Source of the DNA: Polyangiaceae bacterium
Lineage (GTDB): Bacteria; Myxococcota_A; Polyangia; Polyangiales; Polyangiaceae
Reading direction: 5' to 3'
Assembly: GCA_020848455.1 (NCBI GenBank)
Contig: JADLAB010000400.1
Coordinates: 1 to 39,585 of the forward strand
Length of the DNA: 39,585 nt
The position numbers and the translations under genes were made by a program. This document shows positions 6,736 through 37,415 of this stretch, one piece after another; within the stretch, counting starts at the first letter, position 1; every line of letters starts with the position of its first letter. The notes beneath the pieces were generated by a model. That model searched no databases. It saw nothing but the letters and a program-made list of their open reading frames with translations, and was not told the origin of the DNA.

Positions 6736-8706
6736 GTGTCCTACGACCTCGCACCGCTCAAGAGCTACGTCCGGTTCTACCTCGCGATCCTGTCGCAGCT
6801 CGAGCGGGTGTGGCAGAGCCTGTGCGCGATCGAGACGGCGGTGCGCGAGGAGCTCGGCCCGTTCGCGACCGACCTCGCGCCGGTCGGCCTGCCGGCGCTC
6901 GCCACGCTCACGGATCCGCCGCGCACACTGCCGCCCGAGCTCGCGGCCCTGTGGCGCCCGGAGGATCCGGACGAGCTCGACGGGCTGTGCGACGTGTACG
7001 AGGTCGTCGGGCGCTTCTCGTTCCAGGGGGAGCGCGACGCCAACCTCGCGGCGGCGACGGCGCTCGTGGCCACGGCGCGCGGGGCCATCGTCGAGAACGA
7101 CGAGGCGCTGCGCGGCCTCGAGCCACTCGGCGAGCGCGCCCGCGCGACCTCCGAGGCGCTGCGCGCCGCCGAGAAGGCGCGCGCCGCGGCCGACCGCAGC
7201 GACCGGGCGGCGCGGCTCGAGCCCATGATCGAGGCGGTGCTGTTGCGGGCGAAGCAGACGCAGGACGCCCTGCACGCGGTGCCGATCCCGACGCTGGCGG
7301 ACGCGGCGACGGCCGGCGAGGAGTACCGGCGGCTGCGCGCGCGGCTGCAGCAGGTCTACCAGACCTGCCTGCCGTTCCTGAAGAACGCCATCGCGGCGGT
7401 GTGGGCCTTCGTCGACGCGCCCGTGCCGCAGGACTTCCCCGAAGATCTGCCGCTCGTGCCCGAGCTTCCGCCCGAGCTCGTCGCGCTGCCCGAGGCGGGC
7501 TCCGAGGATCTCGACAGGGCGGAGAAGACGCTGGCGGCGCTGGCGCTCGAGGTGCAGGGCCTCGAGCAGACGAAGGCCGCGATCGCCTCCGAGCTCGGCA
7601 AGCTCGAGGCGCAGGCCGCCGCGATCCTGGCTCGGCGCGACGAGCACCGCGCCGACATCGAGCTGGCGCGGGCGCTGCTCGACTGGGCGCGCGCGACCGA
7701 GGTGCAGGCGACGCTGCAGCGCAAGGCGAGCGAGCTCGAGCGCGAGCTCGCCCCGCGCGTCGCCCTCGCATCGAAGGCCGCGACCGAGGTCGCCGACCTC
7801 AAGACCGAGCTCGAGGCCGATGCCAAGGAGGCCGAGGAGAAGGCCGCCGCCATCGCGCCGCTCGAGACCGAGCTCGCGGACCTGCAGAAGAAGGAGCCGC
7901 TGCTGTTCGGCAAGGACGAGTGGCGTGGCAAGGTCGCCGCCGCCCAGTCGAACCTCGAGGCGGAGCGGCTGGCGCACGCCGCGCTCGGTCAGTCGGTGGC
8001 GCAGCGCCGCATGGAGCTCACCGCCGCCGAGGTGCGCGCCGGGACCGCCCAGGCCGAGCAGGCGATCACCGAGCGCAGCCTCGCCGACGTGCGCACGCGC
8101 CGCGTCGAGGTCGACCGGGAGCTGCGCGCGCTCGCCGAGAAGCTCGGCAGCAAGCGCCCGGCGCGACCCGTGCCTCCGTCCGAGGTCGAGGAGATCGCCA
8201 TCGCGCTCGAGCAGAAGGAGCTCGGCGTCGCGGCCGAGCTCGAGCGCGTGCGGGCCGAGCAGCAACGGAAGAAGGAGGATGCCCTGCGCACCATCGCGCG
8301 CGGCCGTCAGATCGAGGTCGAGCGCCAGCACGCCCAGGCGCGGGTCGACGGCGTGCGCGTCGCCCGCGCGGAGGGCATCGACGCCGCCCACCGCCGGCTC
8401 GCGGCCGACCGGCGCGCAGCGGTCGAGGAGCACGTGCGCGAGGTGCTGGGCGCGCTCTCGAAGTCGCTCGTGCAGGTGGGGCCCGTGTTCGTGGATCCGG
8501 CGCGGGAGCGGCTGCGCGTCGCGACGGAGCCCGACTTCGGCGCCGCCGAGCGGGTGGCCGCGGCCGCGGCGGCCGTCGCGCCGGTGGTCGAGCGCCTGCT
8601 CGCCGAGCGCGGACCGGAGATCGTCGCGGTGGGAGAGCTGCTCGGGCGCATCCAGCGCGAGTTCTGCGACGCGGCCAGCGCGGCGTGTCGCGCTGCGTGG
8701 GGGTAG
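6736..8706 (+). CDS. Long coiled-coil protein of the Hsp70/GTPase cassette
   Basis: This 656-residue protein has no recognised catalytic motif, no signal peptide and no membrane segment. The first ~255 residues are helical with a central Pro-rich stretch. From about residue 258 to 555 it is dominated by Glu/Ala/Leu/Lys/Arg heptad-like sequence typical of a long coiled coil, briefly broken by a KKEPLLFGKDEWRGK segment near residue 385. The C-terminal ~100 residues are Ala/Val-rich helix. The GTG at 6736 has GGAGG about 9 bases upstream and lies 23 bp after the extended end of the GTPase frame, so the three genes read as one operon. A scaffold or adaptor role for the ATPase and GTPase is plausible but inferred. 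It could be the counterpart of SrfA in SrfABC systems, though I cannot show homology. Confidence 0.8.
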   Translation: MSYDLAPLKSYVRFYLAILSQLERVWQSLCAIETAVREELGPFATDLAPVGLPALATLTDPPRTLPPELAALWRPEDPDELDGLCDVYEVVGRFSFQGERDANLAAATALVATARGAIVENDEALRGLEPLGERARATSEALRAAEKARAAADRSDRAARLEPMIEAVLLRAKQTQDALHAVPIPTLADAATAGEEYRRLRARLQQVYQTCLPFLKNAIAAVWAFVDAPVPQDFPEDLPLVPELPPELVALPEAGSEDLDRAEKTLAALALEVQGLEQTKAAIASELGKLEAQAAAILARRDEHRADIELARALLDWARATEVQATLQRKASELERELAPRVALASKAATEVADLKTELEADAKEAEEKAAAIAPLETELADLQKKEPLLFGKDEWRGKVAAAQSNLEAERLAHAALGQSVAQRRMELTAAEVRAGTAQAEQAITERSLADVRTRRVEVDRELRALAEKLGSKRPARPVPPSEVEEIAIALEQKELGVAAELERVRAEQQRKKEDALRTIARGRQIEVERQHAQARVDGVRVARAEGIDAAHRRLAADRRAAVEEHVREVLGALSKSLVQVGPVFVDPARERLRVATEPDFGAAERVAAAAAAVAPVVERLLAERGPEIVAVGELLGRIQREFCDAASAACRAAWG

Positions 8707-32985: not shown

Positions 32986-34137
32986 CTAGCCGCGCACCAC
33001 GGGCAGGCTCGCCCGACGGCGCGCGCCGGCGAGCTGTCCGCACGCACCCCCGACGTCGCGTCCGCGCGGCTTGCGCACGAGCGTCCGCACCCCTCGGCTG
33101 CGCAGCGCCGCGACGAAGGCGTCGACGCGCTCGTCGCTCGGCGTCGTGAGCGCCGTGTCGGGTCCCGGGTTGGCCGGGATGACGTTCACGCGGCAGCGGA
33201 TGCCCTGCACGAACGAGGCGAGCAGCTCGGCGTCCGCGGGCGCGTCGTTGTACCCGGCGAACAGAGCGTACTGGAACAGGATACGCCGTCCGCGTGGCAG
33301 CGCTTCGACGATGGCGCGGTGCAGGCTCGCGAGGTCGAAGCGCGCTCCGACCGGCATGATGCGCGTGCGGCGCGCGTCGTCGGGCGCGTTGAGGCTCACT
33401 GCCAGCTCGGCGCGCGTGCGCGCGAAGAAGACCGCGATCTTGTCCGCCACGCCGACGGTGCTCACGGTCACGTGCGATGGGGCGAAGGCGAAGGCGTACG
33501 GCTCGCACAGGAGCTCCACCGCACGCAGCACCGCGTCGAGGTTGTCGAAGGGCTCGCCCATGCCCATGAACACGATGCTCGAGATCGGGGCCGCGGCGGC
33601 CTGCGGCAGCGCGCGGGCGATGCGGTATTGATCGACCATCTCGGCCGTGTGGAGGTGCCGCTCGAGCCCGTGCACGCCGGTCTCGCAGAAGCTGCAGGCG
33701 CGCGCGCAGCCCACCTGGCTCGAGACGCAGAGCGTGGTGCGCGGTCGCGGCCGCTCCGCCGTCGCCGGGATGATCACCGACTCGATGAGCCGGCCGTCCC
33801 AGGTGCGGAACAAGAGGCGCGTGGCACCGTCGGCGCTCGGTGCGCGCTCGACGAGCTCGAGGCAGGGCGCCGGCGAGAGCTCGAGCAGCGCGGCGCGGGC
33901 CCGCGAGGGGACGCTCGCGGCCTGCAACGTCGCCGCGTCCCAGGCGCACCCGGGGGGCGGCTCGGGCTGGGCGGTACCGAGCGCGTCGGGGCGCGGGCCG
34001 CGGAACGCCGTGCGGAGCGCGCGCGTGGCTGCGCGCTCCGCCTCCGCCTCGGTCGCGCCGCGCGGCACGAGCCAGCGGGCGAGCGAGGCGCGGTCGTGAC
34101 CCGCGAGGGATGTGCTCGGGTGCGAGAGATGTTTCAC
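32986..34137 (-). CDS. RlmN/Cfr-type radical SAM RNA methyltransferase
   Basis: The 383-residue protein matches RlmN in length and key residues. The radical SAM cluster is CARACSFC (Cys144, Cys148, Cys151) and the SAM-binding GGE-type motif is VFMGMGEPFDNLD. The C-terminal GGACGQLAG holds the methyl-accepting/resolving cysteine (Cys366, equivalent to E. coli RlmN Cys355). RlmN methylates C2 of A2503 in 23S rRNA and A37 of some tRNAs. The N-terminal half is less typical, so a Cfr-like or paralogous role is possible. The GTG at 34137 is taken as start; the frame is open further upstream but enters the AT-rich promoter region. A perfect TATAAT on the minus strand lies at 34282-34287. The gene is divergent from the putative large RNA. 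Confidence 0.88.
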   Translation of the reverse strand: MKHLSHPSTSLAGHDRASLARWLVPRGATEAEAERAATRALRTAFRGPRPDALGTAQPEPPPGCAWDAATLQAASVPSRARAALLELSPAPCLELVERAPSADGATRLLFRTWDGRLIESVIIPATAERPRPRTTLCVSSQVGCARACSFCETGVHGLERHLHTAEMVDQYRIARALPQAAAAPISSIVFMGMGEPFDNLDAVLRAVELLCEPYAFAFAPSHVTVSTVGVADKIAVFFARTRAELAVSLNAPDDARRTRIMPVGARFDLASLHRAIVEALPRGRRILFQYALFAGYNDAPADAELLASFVQGIRCRVNVIPANPGPDTALTTPSDERVDAFVAALRSRGVRTLVRKPRGRDVGGACGQLAGARRRASLPVVRG

Positions 34138-34273
34138 GGCTTCGGTCCCGGTGTCGCGGCGCCCGGGCGTCGCGCGCTCTGGGCCGGCGTCGTCGCCCCG
34201 CAGCGGGGTCGAGAGCACACCGCGGCCGGGCCGCTCGAAGCTAGCACGCCGCGGCGAGCGGTGCGTCTTGTGC

Positions 34274-34440
34274 GAAAAAAAATTATAAAGACAAACGTTG
34301 TCATGATATCGGCCGCCGCGGCCGGGTGCGCGCGCCAAGTGGCCTGTTTTCTGGGCGATGCTGACAACTTGTGGATAAGTCTGTGGACAAAAAAAAGCAC
34401 GCGGCCGCGATATTTTTGTTTGCAAATAGGGGCCGGCTGA
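34274..34440. promoter_or_regulatory. AT-rich divergent promoter region with origin-like boxes
   Basis: This is by far the most AT-rich stretch of the window, with runs of eight A at 34275-34282 and 34389-34396. On the minus strand TATAAT (34282-34287) is a perfect -10 box facing the rlmN-like gene, with no clear -35. GACAA/TTGTC (34290-34302) is a short inverted repeat. On the plus strand TGGACA at 34384 followed by TATT-type hexamers near 34411 could form a promoter for the structured RNA downstream, but spacing is poor and the start site is not fixed. Confidence 0.6.
34370..34390 (-). promoter_or_regulatory. Two tandem DnaA-box-like 9-mers
   Basis: TGTGGATAA at 34370-34378 is the exact complement of the DnaA box TTATCCACA. 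TGTGGACAA at 34382-34390 differs at one position (TTGTCCACA). They lie in the same orientation, three bases apart, inside the AT-rich stretch. This is established DnaA-binding sequence. Whether it is a replication origin, a DnaA-regulated promoter or chance is not determined; no dnaA or dnaN gene is in the window. Confidence 0.55.
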
Positions 34441-36433
34441 CTAAGTTCTGTCCTTGGAAGTTCCGCGGGACATCAACCCGCGGGGCGGTACCAAACGCAG
34501 AAACCGTCGAGGTGGCTGCGGTCGCGACCGGAGGTTGCGCGCCTTGTTGCGCTCAGCCGACACGCGACCGACCCCGTTCGTTTCACGGCTACGTCAACGC
34601 CGTGGAAGGGCCGGGACAAAGAAGGCCACGTCGGTCCGGAGCACGGGGGAGACCCCGGGCGATGGCTGACTTCACAGGCAGATTTATCTCAGCCGGTGAG
34701 CTCCACGGTGGAAAGCACTTCGGGTCCGTTCGTGCGTGCGCTTCTTTCGCGAGGGCGCGCGTGCGGCAACCCTCACGGCGCGCTGCGCTTGACGCGTGGT
34801 GTGCCAGGCGGATTCGTTCGAAAGAGCCCAAGTCACCGCATGGGCGCTGTGTGCGGAGTTTCCACCCCGCGCACGGCACGGGTTCGCGACAAGGAGTGCT
34901 CGGGTCGAACAGGTTGGGGTAAATCCACCGAGGCGAGCGGTCGCCGCGGTGGGGGCCAAAACGCGACCGCAAGGCGCGCGGCCCCTGGCCTGTGACAACC
35001 CGGTGGGCGCGGCTCTCACGAGCTTCGCCCTCCGACCGTCGGTGGCTTGCCACCGTGTCAGCGTCGGAGTTTGGGCCGTTCCGGGGTGTGCTCACGGACC
35101 GTTTCGATTGCAGAAGTCGATGGGCCTCACGTGGCCCGGGCGCGTACGGCGAATAGCCGCACGAGCCGGGACCTAGCGCGCACCGCGTGCGCGTGAACGC
35201 GTGTTGGAAGCTGCGCCCCCGCGGCGAAGCGGTGGCAGCAGTGGCAGCTCCAGGGAAGATGCCGACCGAAAGGCCGGCGGGAGACCGGGGGATCCATCGG
35301 TGGAAGGCGCTCCGGGCTCACAACCGCGCAGTGTTGGCGCACTGCGAGAGGATGGGTCCTCGGTGTTGCGGCAGTGGCAGGCTTCGGCCCGCCGAGCTGC
35401 AACATGACAGGGAGCGTCAGCGGCTCTGCCGCCCGGCTCGCGCGTGACCTAACAAGCATGCGCGGGTCGCCGCCTCACCCAAGGGTGAGCGGCCTCCAAC
35501 GAGAGGACGGCGTGGGTCGTAGCTGGTGACTGCGGCGCCCAACTGCAGCATCACCTGGGGTCGGGGTTTCCGGCAACGGAGCACCGACGTCGACGTGGAT
35601 CTCGTCGTGTCCGGCGCGCGCAGGCGCGCGCGTGGCAAGGGGCGGCGGGTGAAGCGGCGATCGCAAGTGCGCAAGCACCGCGCTCGGGAGTCGGAAGACT
35701 GGTGGGTACTCGTGACATCTAGTCGGTTGCAGAGATCGTAGAAGGGCATCTCGCGCCGGGGTACCAGCACCTTCGGGTGCCGGAAAACCGCCGGAGCTAG
35801 CCCCTCGCAAACGGCCCAAGTCCTTGACTAGGCGGGCCCGGAGCGGGTGGCGAATCGGGTGCGGGGGCTGTCGTGACGCAGGCGATAATAAGCCTGAGTG
35901 GGCAGCTCACTCGACCGCAAGGTCGAGCGGAAGCGATCGAAGGCGTCCTGGGTCATTGCGCGCTGCGTTCTTTAACCGGTGCGTGGTGTTGATGGCCCTG
36001 GCCTGCCGGTGGCGAGCTCGCGCAAGCGAGCCCCCGCCGAGTCGAGACCCGTGGAAGGATCGACTTGGAGCCGGTGTGGCGACAGAGGACGTCAGATCTC
36101 GTGACGGTTCGGGTAGGCTCCCTCAGCCCAGGCGGCGCAGGGGGTCGGTAGCACGGAGCTTCGGCTCGACGCTGCCCCGACCGTTCGCGGGTGAAGCTCT
36201 CGCGGCTAAAAACCGCGTGATTCGGACGCATGGTGCGCGCGGCGCGAACCGCCCCCTGCGACTGGAAGCCGACGGAGTACGATGATGCCCGGTTGCACCT
36301 GCGCAGGTGCATCGCGGGTGGCGCGCACCGACCGAATAGGTCGGCCGAGATGGACCACCGGAACCATCCGCGCGCAAGTGGGACTCTCCGTCGAGGGCGA
36401 CTCGGGCAACCGAGTTCGCCCTCGAGCTTTTTT
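34440..36433 (+). ncRNA. Putative ~2 kb structured non-coding RNA
   Basis: About 2 kb between the rlmN-like and superoxide dismutase genes lacks any frame with the strong third-position G/C bias of all neighbours. It is dense in hairpins. Examples are a 7-bp stem at 34463-34483, GAGA-loop stem 34644-34657, CTTG-loop stem 35040-35055, GAAA-loop 35261-35278 and GCAA-loop 35569-35580. Further ones are GCAA-loop 35667-35678, TTCG-loop 35767-35780, GCAA-loop 35911-35926, GCAA-loop 36016-36031 and TTCG-loop 36156-36167, then a 5-bp stem with an A-rich loop at 36201-36217, an 18-bp palindrome at 36294-36311 and a 6-bp stem at 36328-36344. It ends at a strong terminator. No rRNA, RNase P, tmRNA, 6S or group I/II intron core motif was found by eye. 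The 5' end is uncertain and the stretch could hold more than one RNA. Confidence 0.6.
36391..36433 (+). terminator. Strong intrinsic terminator of the putative large RNA
   Basis: CGAGGGCGACTCGG (36392-36405) pairs with CCGAGTTCGCCCTCG (36410-36424) around a GCAA tetraloop, with a single bulged T. Six T follow at 36428-36433. Orientation is plus strand. No plus-strand protein gene precedes it for more than 2 kb, so it must end a non-coding transcript. It lies 174 bp before the stop of the convergent superoxide dismutase gene. Confidence 0.88.
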
Positions 36434-36606: not shown

Positions 36607-37185
36607 TCAGCCGAGGTTCTTCGCGGCGAAGTCCCAGTTGACGAGGTGCTGCAGGTACGCGTCCACGTAGCTCGGACGCGCGTTGCGGTAGTCGATGTAG
36701 TAGGCGTGCTCCCAGACGTCGCAGGTGAGCAGCGCCTTCTGGCCGTGCTTCATCGGCAGGTCGGCGTTCGACGTCTTCGTCACCTTGAGCTTGCCGCCCT
36801 CCTCGACGAGCCACGCCCAGCCGGAGCCGAACTGGGTCTTCGCCGCCTCGCCGAGCTGCTGCAGCAGGGCGTCGACCGAGCCGAAGTCCCGCGTGACGAG
36901 CTCGAGCAGCTTGCCCGTGGGCTTGCCGCCGCCGCCCGGCTTCATGGAGCTCCAGTAGAAGGTGTGGTTCCAGATCTGTGCGGCGTTGTTGAACACGCCG
37001 CCCTCGGACGCGACGATGATCTGCTCGAGGGTCTTGCTCGCCTCGGGCTTGCCCTCGACGAGCTTGTTCAGGTTGGTGACGTAGGCCTGGTGATGCTTGC
37101 CGTAGTGGTAGTCGAGCGTCTCGGCGCTGATGTGCGGTGCGAGGGCGTCCTTCGCCCACGGAAGCTCTGGAAGTGTGAAAGCCAT
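36607..37185 (-). CDS. sodB: Iron superoxide dismutase
   Basis: This 192-residue cytoplasmic enzyme dismutates superoxide. The metal ligands His27, His74, Asp156 and His160 align with those of E. coli SodB. The active-site glutamine Gln70 in [13 protein letters not shown] is in the Fe-type position, and [13 protein letters not shown] completes the signature. The length equals that of FeSOD (192-193). The ATG at 37185 is preceded by GAGGAG about 8 bases upstream. It is monocistronic and convergent with the putative large RNA. Fe versus cambialistic metal use cannot be proven from sequence. Confidence 0.96.
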
Positions 37186-37415
37186 GGCGTGCTCTCCTCG
37201 ATGGGGTGGCGGGTGACCAGGCGACCGCGGCGAGGCCCGCGTCGGCTCGGCGCGGCACTCCCCGGGGGGGCTCGCGACCAGGGGCCGGCGCACACGTGCT
37301 GCGAGGCTGGCGGCGCAGAGCATACCAATTTCCTCGTGCCGGCCAAGGCAAAAAAGTTCCGTTAGGTAACTTCATCGCCGTTGCCGGTCGAGGGGCTCCG
37401 TGCTCGTCTCCGGCC

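Follow-up and report, generated by a model that had tools for sequence, protein, structure and literature searches.

A predicted giant structured RNA with three homologous modules in the Polyangiales

We found that a contig of a Polyangiaceae bacterium (GenBank JADLAB010000400.1; the whole stretch of 39,585 nucleotides that was analysed is called the window below) encodes a predicted structured RNA of ~1.98 kb with its own promoter-like signal of the sigma70 type, a GCAA-capped terminator and a stem that joins its two ends (Table 1). That the segment is a real, single structured RNA of ~2 kb is in our judgement practically beyond doubt, and we hold almost as firmly that it goes back to an ancient triplication in tandem of a module of ~600 nt. 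The evidence supports an undescribed class of RNA, restricted so far to the order Polyangiales and without a match to any Rfam family. To the whole of our reading, a trans-acting RNA gene of ~2 kb and of an undescribed Polyangiales class, with three homologous ~600-nt modules, tuned by DnaA and with a role in scaffolding or assembly, we would give a probability of roughly one half; transcription and function of the RNA are unproven, in the absence of transcript data. The internal triplication, the array of DnaA-box-like motifs and the taxonomic spread all go beyond the preliminary description of the segment. At 1.7-2.4 kb the RNA would rank with the largest structured RNAs known in bacteria outside the ribosome, exceeding OLE, ROOL or GOLLD two- to threefold in length, and its ~2,000 nt surpass the length of 16S ribosomal RNA.

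Boundaries and folding of the RNA

The preliminary description had placed a single very large RNA at 34440-36433, without a credible coding frame, with an AT-rich promoter-like start, at least thirteen hairpins, stable tetraloop caps and a GCAA-capped terminator with six T. The predicted RNA agrees with this position within ~15 nt, and both the start and the terminator were found to be present and conserved. In 37 loci the promoter-like signal, read by eye as TTGCRR-N16/17-nAnAnT, lies at a fixed distance from the 5' end of the RNA; the elements found in relatives are TTGCGG or TTGCAA and CATAAA or GACATT, with a spacing of N16-17. The terminators of relatives have a G+C-rich stem and usually carry GGGYGACC or GGGCAACC in the loop region, and the distance from start to terminator is 1.67-2.43 kb, the exception being the locus L105 (0.78 kb). 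The absence of a credible frame was borne out as well. Gene calls based on coding bias leave a gap in the window, from the rlmN-like gene to sodB, and likewise in nearly all relatives, the gap containing the whole RNA in nearly all of the 37 loci analysed, and the longest sense ORFs vary in place and length among the relatives. A protein-coding gene was therefore rejected.

The first 961 nt were predicted to fold with -516 kcal/mol, versus -466 +/- 5.7 kcal/mol for 20 dinucleotide shuffles, none of which equalled the native value (z = -8.8). Eight hairpins of at least 5 bp were capped by a tetraloop (GNRA, UNCG or CUUG), whereas 300 dinucleotide shuffles had 1.3 such hairpins on average and never more than 6, and the consensus fold contains many more than the thirteen hairpins noticed initially. 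Sequence-only alignments were made for two clades (group A, 11 sequences with a mean identity of 54%; group B, 11 sequences, 64%), for which RNAalifold gave 576 and 751 pairs, respectively. In group A two-sided changes were present at 365 pairs, and the energy was -859 versus -310 to -333 for column-shuffled alignments. To reduce circularity, the structure was also inferred from about half of the sequences and scored on the remainder: of the held-out cells, 80.8% were paired in group A and 85.6% in group B, versus 39-44% for slid partners, and the held-out covarying pairs numbered 149 versus 41-49 (A) and 203 versus 47-60 (B), three to four times the slid controls. A check of covariation in homologues next to rlmN and sodB, as proposed in the preliminary description, thus turned out in favour of the RNA, with pairing and covariation far above the controls.

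The fold was also asymmetric between the strands. Sense and antisense energies were -859 versus -575 (A) and -1426 versus -1068 (B), and G-U cells outnumbered A-C cells (1002 versus 237 and 1042 versus 192). The latter count does no more than lean towards the sense strand, since the energy model favours G-U; the energy gap was obtained with one model for both strands. The stem that joins the ends (P1), of which the strands are ~1.9 kb apart, can pair in nearly all members, and both strands change between clades (e.g. GAAGTTCGC/GCGACTTC, GAAGGTCGC/GCGAGCTTC and GGAAGCTCT/AGACCTTCC). As P1 joins both ends it provides direct evidence for one RNA and not several short ones. Held-out covariation, strand asymmetry, conserved promoter and terminator, and the 5'-3' stem together led us to the same conclusion as had been drawn at first sight, that of a single very large structured RNA, of a class without a counterpart in Rfam.

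Table 1. Position of the RNA, its parts and its neighbours in the window
Feature	Position	Strand	Remarks
rlmN-like radical SAM gene	32986..34425	-	Divergent from the RNA and conserved beside it in group A; coordinates are those of the open frame, the gene probably starting at ~34.15 kb
DnaA-box-like motif 1	34370..34378		TGTGGATAA, i.e. TTATCCACA on the - strand; only exact TTATCCACA in the window, chance expectation 0.01
DnaA-box-like motif 2	34382..34390		TGTGGACAA, 12 bp downstream of motif 1
Putative sigma70-type promoter	34420..34447	+	-35 TTGCAA 34420-34425, -10 TAAGTT 34442-34447; assigned by eye
Giant structured noncoding RNA	34453..36432	+	~1.98 kb; predicted start ~34453, 3' end inside the T-run
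Most conserved 5' element	34454..34526	+	GAAGTTC-GCGG-ACATC ... CGCAGAA; source of model R1
P1, 5' strand	34455..34466	+	Partner of 36378-36390 in the consensus of group A
Module (arm) 1	34476..35087	+	Closing helix 34476-34496 : 35069-35087 (group A); R2 match 34708-34906, E = 0.0024
Module (arm) 2	35088..35709	+	Closing helix 35088-35109 : 35689-35709; R2 core 35300-35424
Module (arm) 3	35710..36282	+	Closing helix 35710-35728 : 36267-36282; R2 match 35936-36099, E = 0.0016
3' hairpin domain	36288..36377	+	Before P1; consensus helices at RNA positions 1836-1923
P1, 3' strand	36378..36390	+	Pairs with 34455-34466; just before the terminator
Intrinsic terminator	36391..36433	+	15-bp stem, GCAA loop, T6
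Fe/Mn superoxide dismutase gene (sodB)	36607..37323	-	Convergent neighbour; not beside the RNA in most relatives

Modular architecture

The consensus contains three domains with a common signature, consisting of GYAGAAG, GGAAGGC with a stem of 7-8 bp, and GACAG followed by the stem partner. A covariance model that was built from module 2 only (R2; 16 loci) detected modules 1 and 3 in most loci, collinear and on one strand, at E-values as low as 3e-10; the matches in the window itself were weaker (Table 1), and two further loci gave three matches apiece. It is the recovery of the first and third modules by a model trained on the middle one alone, in the same RNAs, from which we infer the triplication. 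The order of the three modules is shared by several families, which suggests a triplication before they split. No other such RNA is known to us in which one large module has been triplicated in tandem. The group A consensus has the three arms abutting directly on a central junction, which is closed by 34471-34475 : 36283-36287; for group B, arms 2 and 3 were seen, without a predicted closing helix for arm 1. An element outside the three module cores (GGCTCTCCCAGCYGAAAGGCGCAGAGGGTC, window positions 36116-36146, RNA positions 1664-1694) is highly conserved in group A and has a fully paired base.

Two loci, L105 (~0.8 kb, adjoining rlmN as in group A) and L103, gave a single R2 match each and have a coding gene in place of the remainder. 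These one-module forms may represent either an ancestral or a reduced state. The occurrence of three- and single-module versions at the same locus amounts to a natural experiment on the growth of giant RNAs. Within the one-module RNA of L105 (roughly 8620-8655, minus strand) we noticed a perfect hairpin, TATCCACAGGTTG-GTGA-CAACCTGTGGATA, of which both strands are DnaA-box sequences, and a weaker version is present in L103.

Distribution, neighbourhood and relation to known RNAs

Counting the window, the RNA was found at 39 loci, all within one myxobacterial order (the Polyangiaceae and three sister families), and nearly all copies are 1.7-2.4 kb long, besides the two short one-module forms. 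In a family search of the blastn type the copy of a sister species was 97% identical, and distant copies in other genera were ~65-70% identical, the matching pieces being collinear over the full 2 kb. From the 5' element of 13 loci (71 positions) we made a covariance model, R1. It matched 29 of 108 genomes in the family and, in the class, 36 of 318, all of them in the order of the window and distributed over four families, and an even draw of 379 genomes of the phylum gave no additional order with the RNA. In a sample of 57 genomes of the class, R2 recovered two further full members that were below the threshold of R1. Within the family, detection by R1 or R2 was patchy (31/108 genomes), which makes it unlikely that the RNA is essential throughout the order. 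Its absence elsewhere is not firm, since the presence calls hang on R1, which misses some members.

Most members come from MAG contigs. One MAG with an estimated contamination of 8% (G083) has two diverged copies of the RNA (L032 and L033), and may contain two organisms in one bin. Pattern matches in a planctomycete and in Caballeronia (L077, L080 and L083) had no module match and were treated as chance, and weak module matches in two genomes (L130 in G052 and L131 in G306) were left out of the count, being partial and having an unconvincing 5' element. The 5' motif was not found in 2.9 million viral contigs, nor was similar DNA found in phage and plasmid records, and an origin from a prophage or plasmid was rejected on these grounds.

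The neighbouring genes differ between clades, with rlmN/accD-like genes upstream and mtnA downstream in one clade and different genes elsewhere, and for that reason no conserved partner gene is proposed. As the RNA, its promoter and its terminator persist while the neighbourhood varies, a trans-acting gene is favoured over a cis-regulatory leader (riboswitch or attenuator). The latter was rejected also because the RNA is divergent from rlmN and has its own terminator, and because the downstream gene varies among clades, in several of which it is convergent. Between rlmN and the promoter of the RNA, the AT-rich DNA of the window contains a palindrome (GACAAACGTTGTC, 34290-34302), perhaps an operator of rlmN, which is found at the same place in L030, L034 and L036 (in the form GATAGTGCTATC in the latter two).

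No known class of RNA had been recognised in the segment before, and the comparison with Rfam 15 gave none either. At gathering thresholds the whole window yielded nothing but one distant tRNA, and the segment 34200-36600 yielded zero matches up to E = 5. The models of OLE, GOLLD, ROOL and HEARO were all unmatched at gathering scores in the segment of the window and five relatives, the core models of group I and II introns, rRNA, RNase P RNA, tmRNA and riboswitches were unmatched in the segment and the relatives scanned, and a one-module relative gave no match up to E = 1. The RNase P RNA of this genome sits on a different contig. In the literature, as far as open-access papers are concerned, we found no description of such an RNA.

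OLE RNA is ~600 nt long (PMC9723947, PMC12054373). Many GOLLD RNAs are just over 800 nt and occur in phages and prophages, GOLLD forming an RNA-only cage and ROOL a homo-oligomeric cage of eight chains, and the cryo-EM structures of OLE, ROOL and GOLLD are all homo-oligomers (PMC12286853). The Polyangiales RNA resembles OLE as a large, well conserved, chromosomal noncoding RNA of bacteria, GOLLD as a giant ornate bacterial RNA of unknown function, and ROOL as a large ornate RNA. However, OLE is mostly found in Bacillota and lacks the three-module build, GOLLD is borne by phages and prophages whereas collections of viruses and phages yielded no copy of the Polyangiales RNA, and the solved ROOL member is a phage-associated RNA of 659 nt whereas the Polyangiales RNA has its repeats within one chain. 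Without a match to any of the three models, much longer and lacking a phage link, the RNA is not a member of OLE, ROOL or GOLLD. We consider 'large ornate RNA' a descriptive label only and rate the RNA as a new class accordingly; if the label were treated as one kind, the RNA would be a variant of it.

DnaA-box-like motifs and possible function

Upstream of the RNA we found a clear array of motifs resembling DnaA boxes. Exact copies of TTATCCACA, which we take to be the classical DnaA box, numbered 35 in the 220-nt upstream regions versus 0 in 446 kb of remaining flanks. TGTGGA motifs were present within 220 nt upstream in 39 of the 39 loci, mostly in one orientation and mostly at about -71 and -83 from the 5' element, sometimes at -94 and -105 (near helical phasing), and a counterpart of motif 1 lies at about -84 in most loci. 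The tandem pair TGTGGATAA-N2-4-TGTGGANAA occurs once in the 9.2-Mb assembly of the window, at the RNA promoter, and seven times in 14 further genomes (in six of them), six times at the RNA promoter, which brings the total in the 15 genomes searched to eight places in seven genomes, seven of them at the RNA promoter. The sole pair away from the RNA (L165; G089:C337:7307-7326) possibly marks a replication origin or another DnaA target. The RNA promoter thus fulfils, at the level of motifs only, the criterion of a DnaA-regulated promoter, namely DnaA boxes at conserved positions nearby. Expression of the RNA is likely to respond to DnaA or to a factor with the same site, although this is suggested by motif identity alone, without binding data.

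That the tandem pair is nearly unique to the locus in seven genomes would also fit a locus that is primarily a DNA element, i.e. a replication origin or a DnaA-titrating site, with the RNA being secondary. In G085, however, the GC skew was negative in 20 of 20 segments over the 400 kb around the RNA and did not flip at the locus, by which an origin was rejected for that genome, and dnaA was located elsewhere in the genomes checked. Together with the fixed distance of the boxes to the promoter, which is kept although the neighbours change, this makes transcriptional control the better reading, and the strand-specific pairing over 2 kb indicates selection on the RNA; we therefore consider a primary DNA element very improbable. 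A decayed gene, a repeat-rich spacer or chance folding of GC-rich DNA can be regarded as refuted, for although a high GC content generally favours stable folds, it leaves unexplained the z-score, the hold-out covariation and the way in which promoter, ends and modules are conserved across several families.

In the reading that we prefer, DnaA (or the factor with the same site) would tune transcription to the state of replication or growth, as inferred from the identity of the motifs, and a stable RNA would act in trans as a structural scaffold, a self-assembling RNA or RNP, whose single chain carries three pseudo-equivalent modules for binding or assembly. The scaffold role is inferred with modest confidence from size and architecture, with OLE, ROOL and GOLLD as its closest precedents. 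A covalently linked particle with three-fold pseudo-symmetry or a larger RNA-only assembly, a ribosome-scale machine that arose by module triplication, whose synthesis is set by DnaA and which is tied to the replication cycle, remains speculative. The same giant RNA could instead be mainly catalytic, either by itself as a large ribozyme or as the RNA core of an RNP enzyme, since conserved motifs recur in every module (GCAGAAG, GGAAGGC...GACAG) and its structural complexity is on a par with that of large ribozymes. It resembles no ribozyme or intron in Rfam, however, and the presence of one module in three copies is more readily understood for a unit of binding or assembly that is repeated than for a single active site, so that we think catalysis unlikely. 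We are equally sceptical about a regulatory decoy with three binding modules per molecule, which would sequester RNA polymerase, DnaA or some other protein that binds nucleic acids, much as RNA polymerase is sequestered by 6S RNA. The repeated modules, the feedback suggested by DnaA-box-like sites at the promoter and the internal hairpin of DnaA-box strands in L105 are in line with such a role, but the hairpin was noticed in the two one-module forms only, 2 kb far exceeds the size needed, and DnaA is not known to bind structured RNA in this manner. 6S RNA itself has roughly one tenth of the length of the Polyangiales RNA, and both 6S RNA and DnaA-controlled genes would offer a functional analogy only (growth-state-linked regulation and DnaA as a transcription factor, respectively), without homology. 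Besides a normal dnaA, one genome encodes a short protein with a domain like the C-terminal domain of DnaA, ~47 kb from the RNA (G087:C5:246282-246476).
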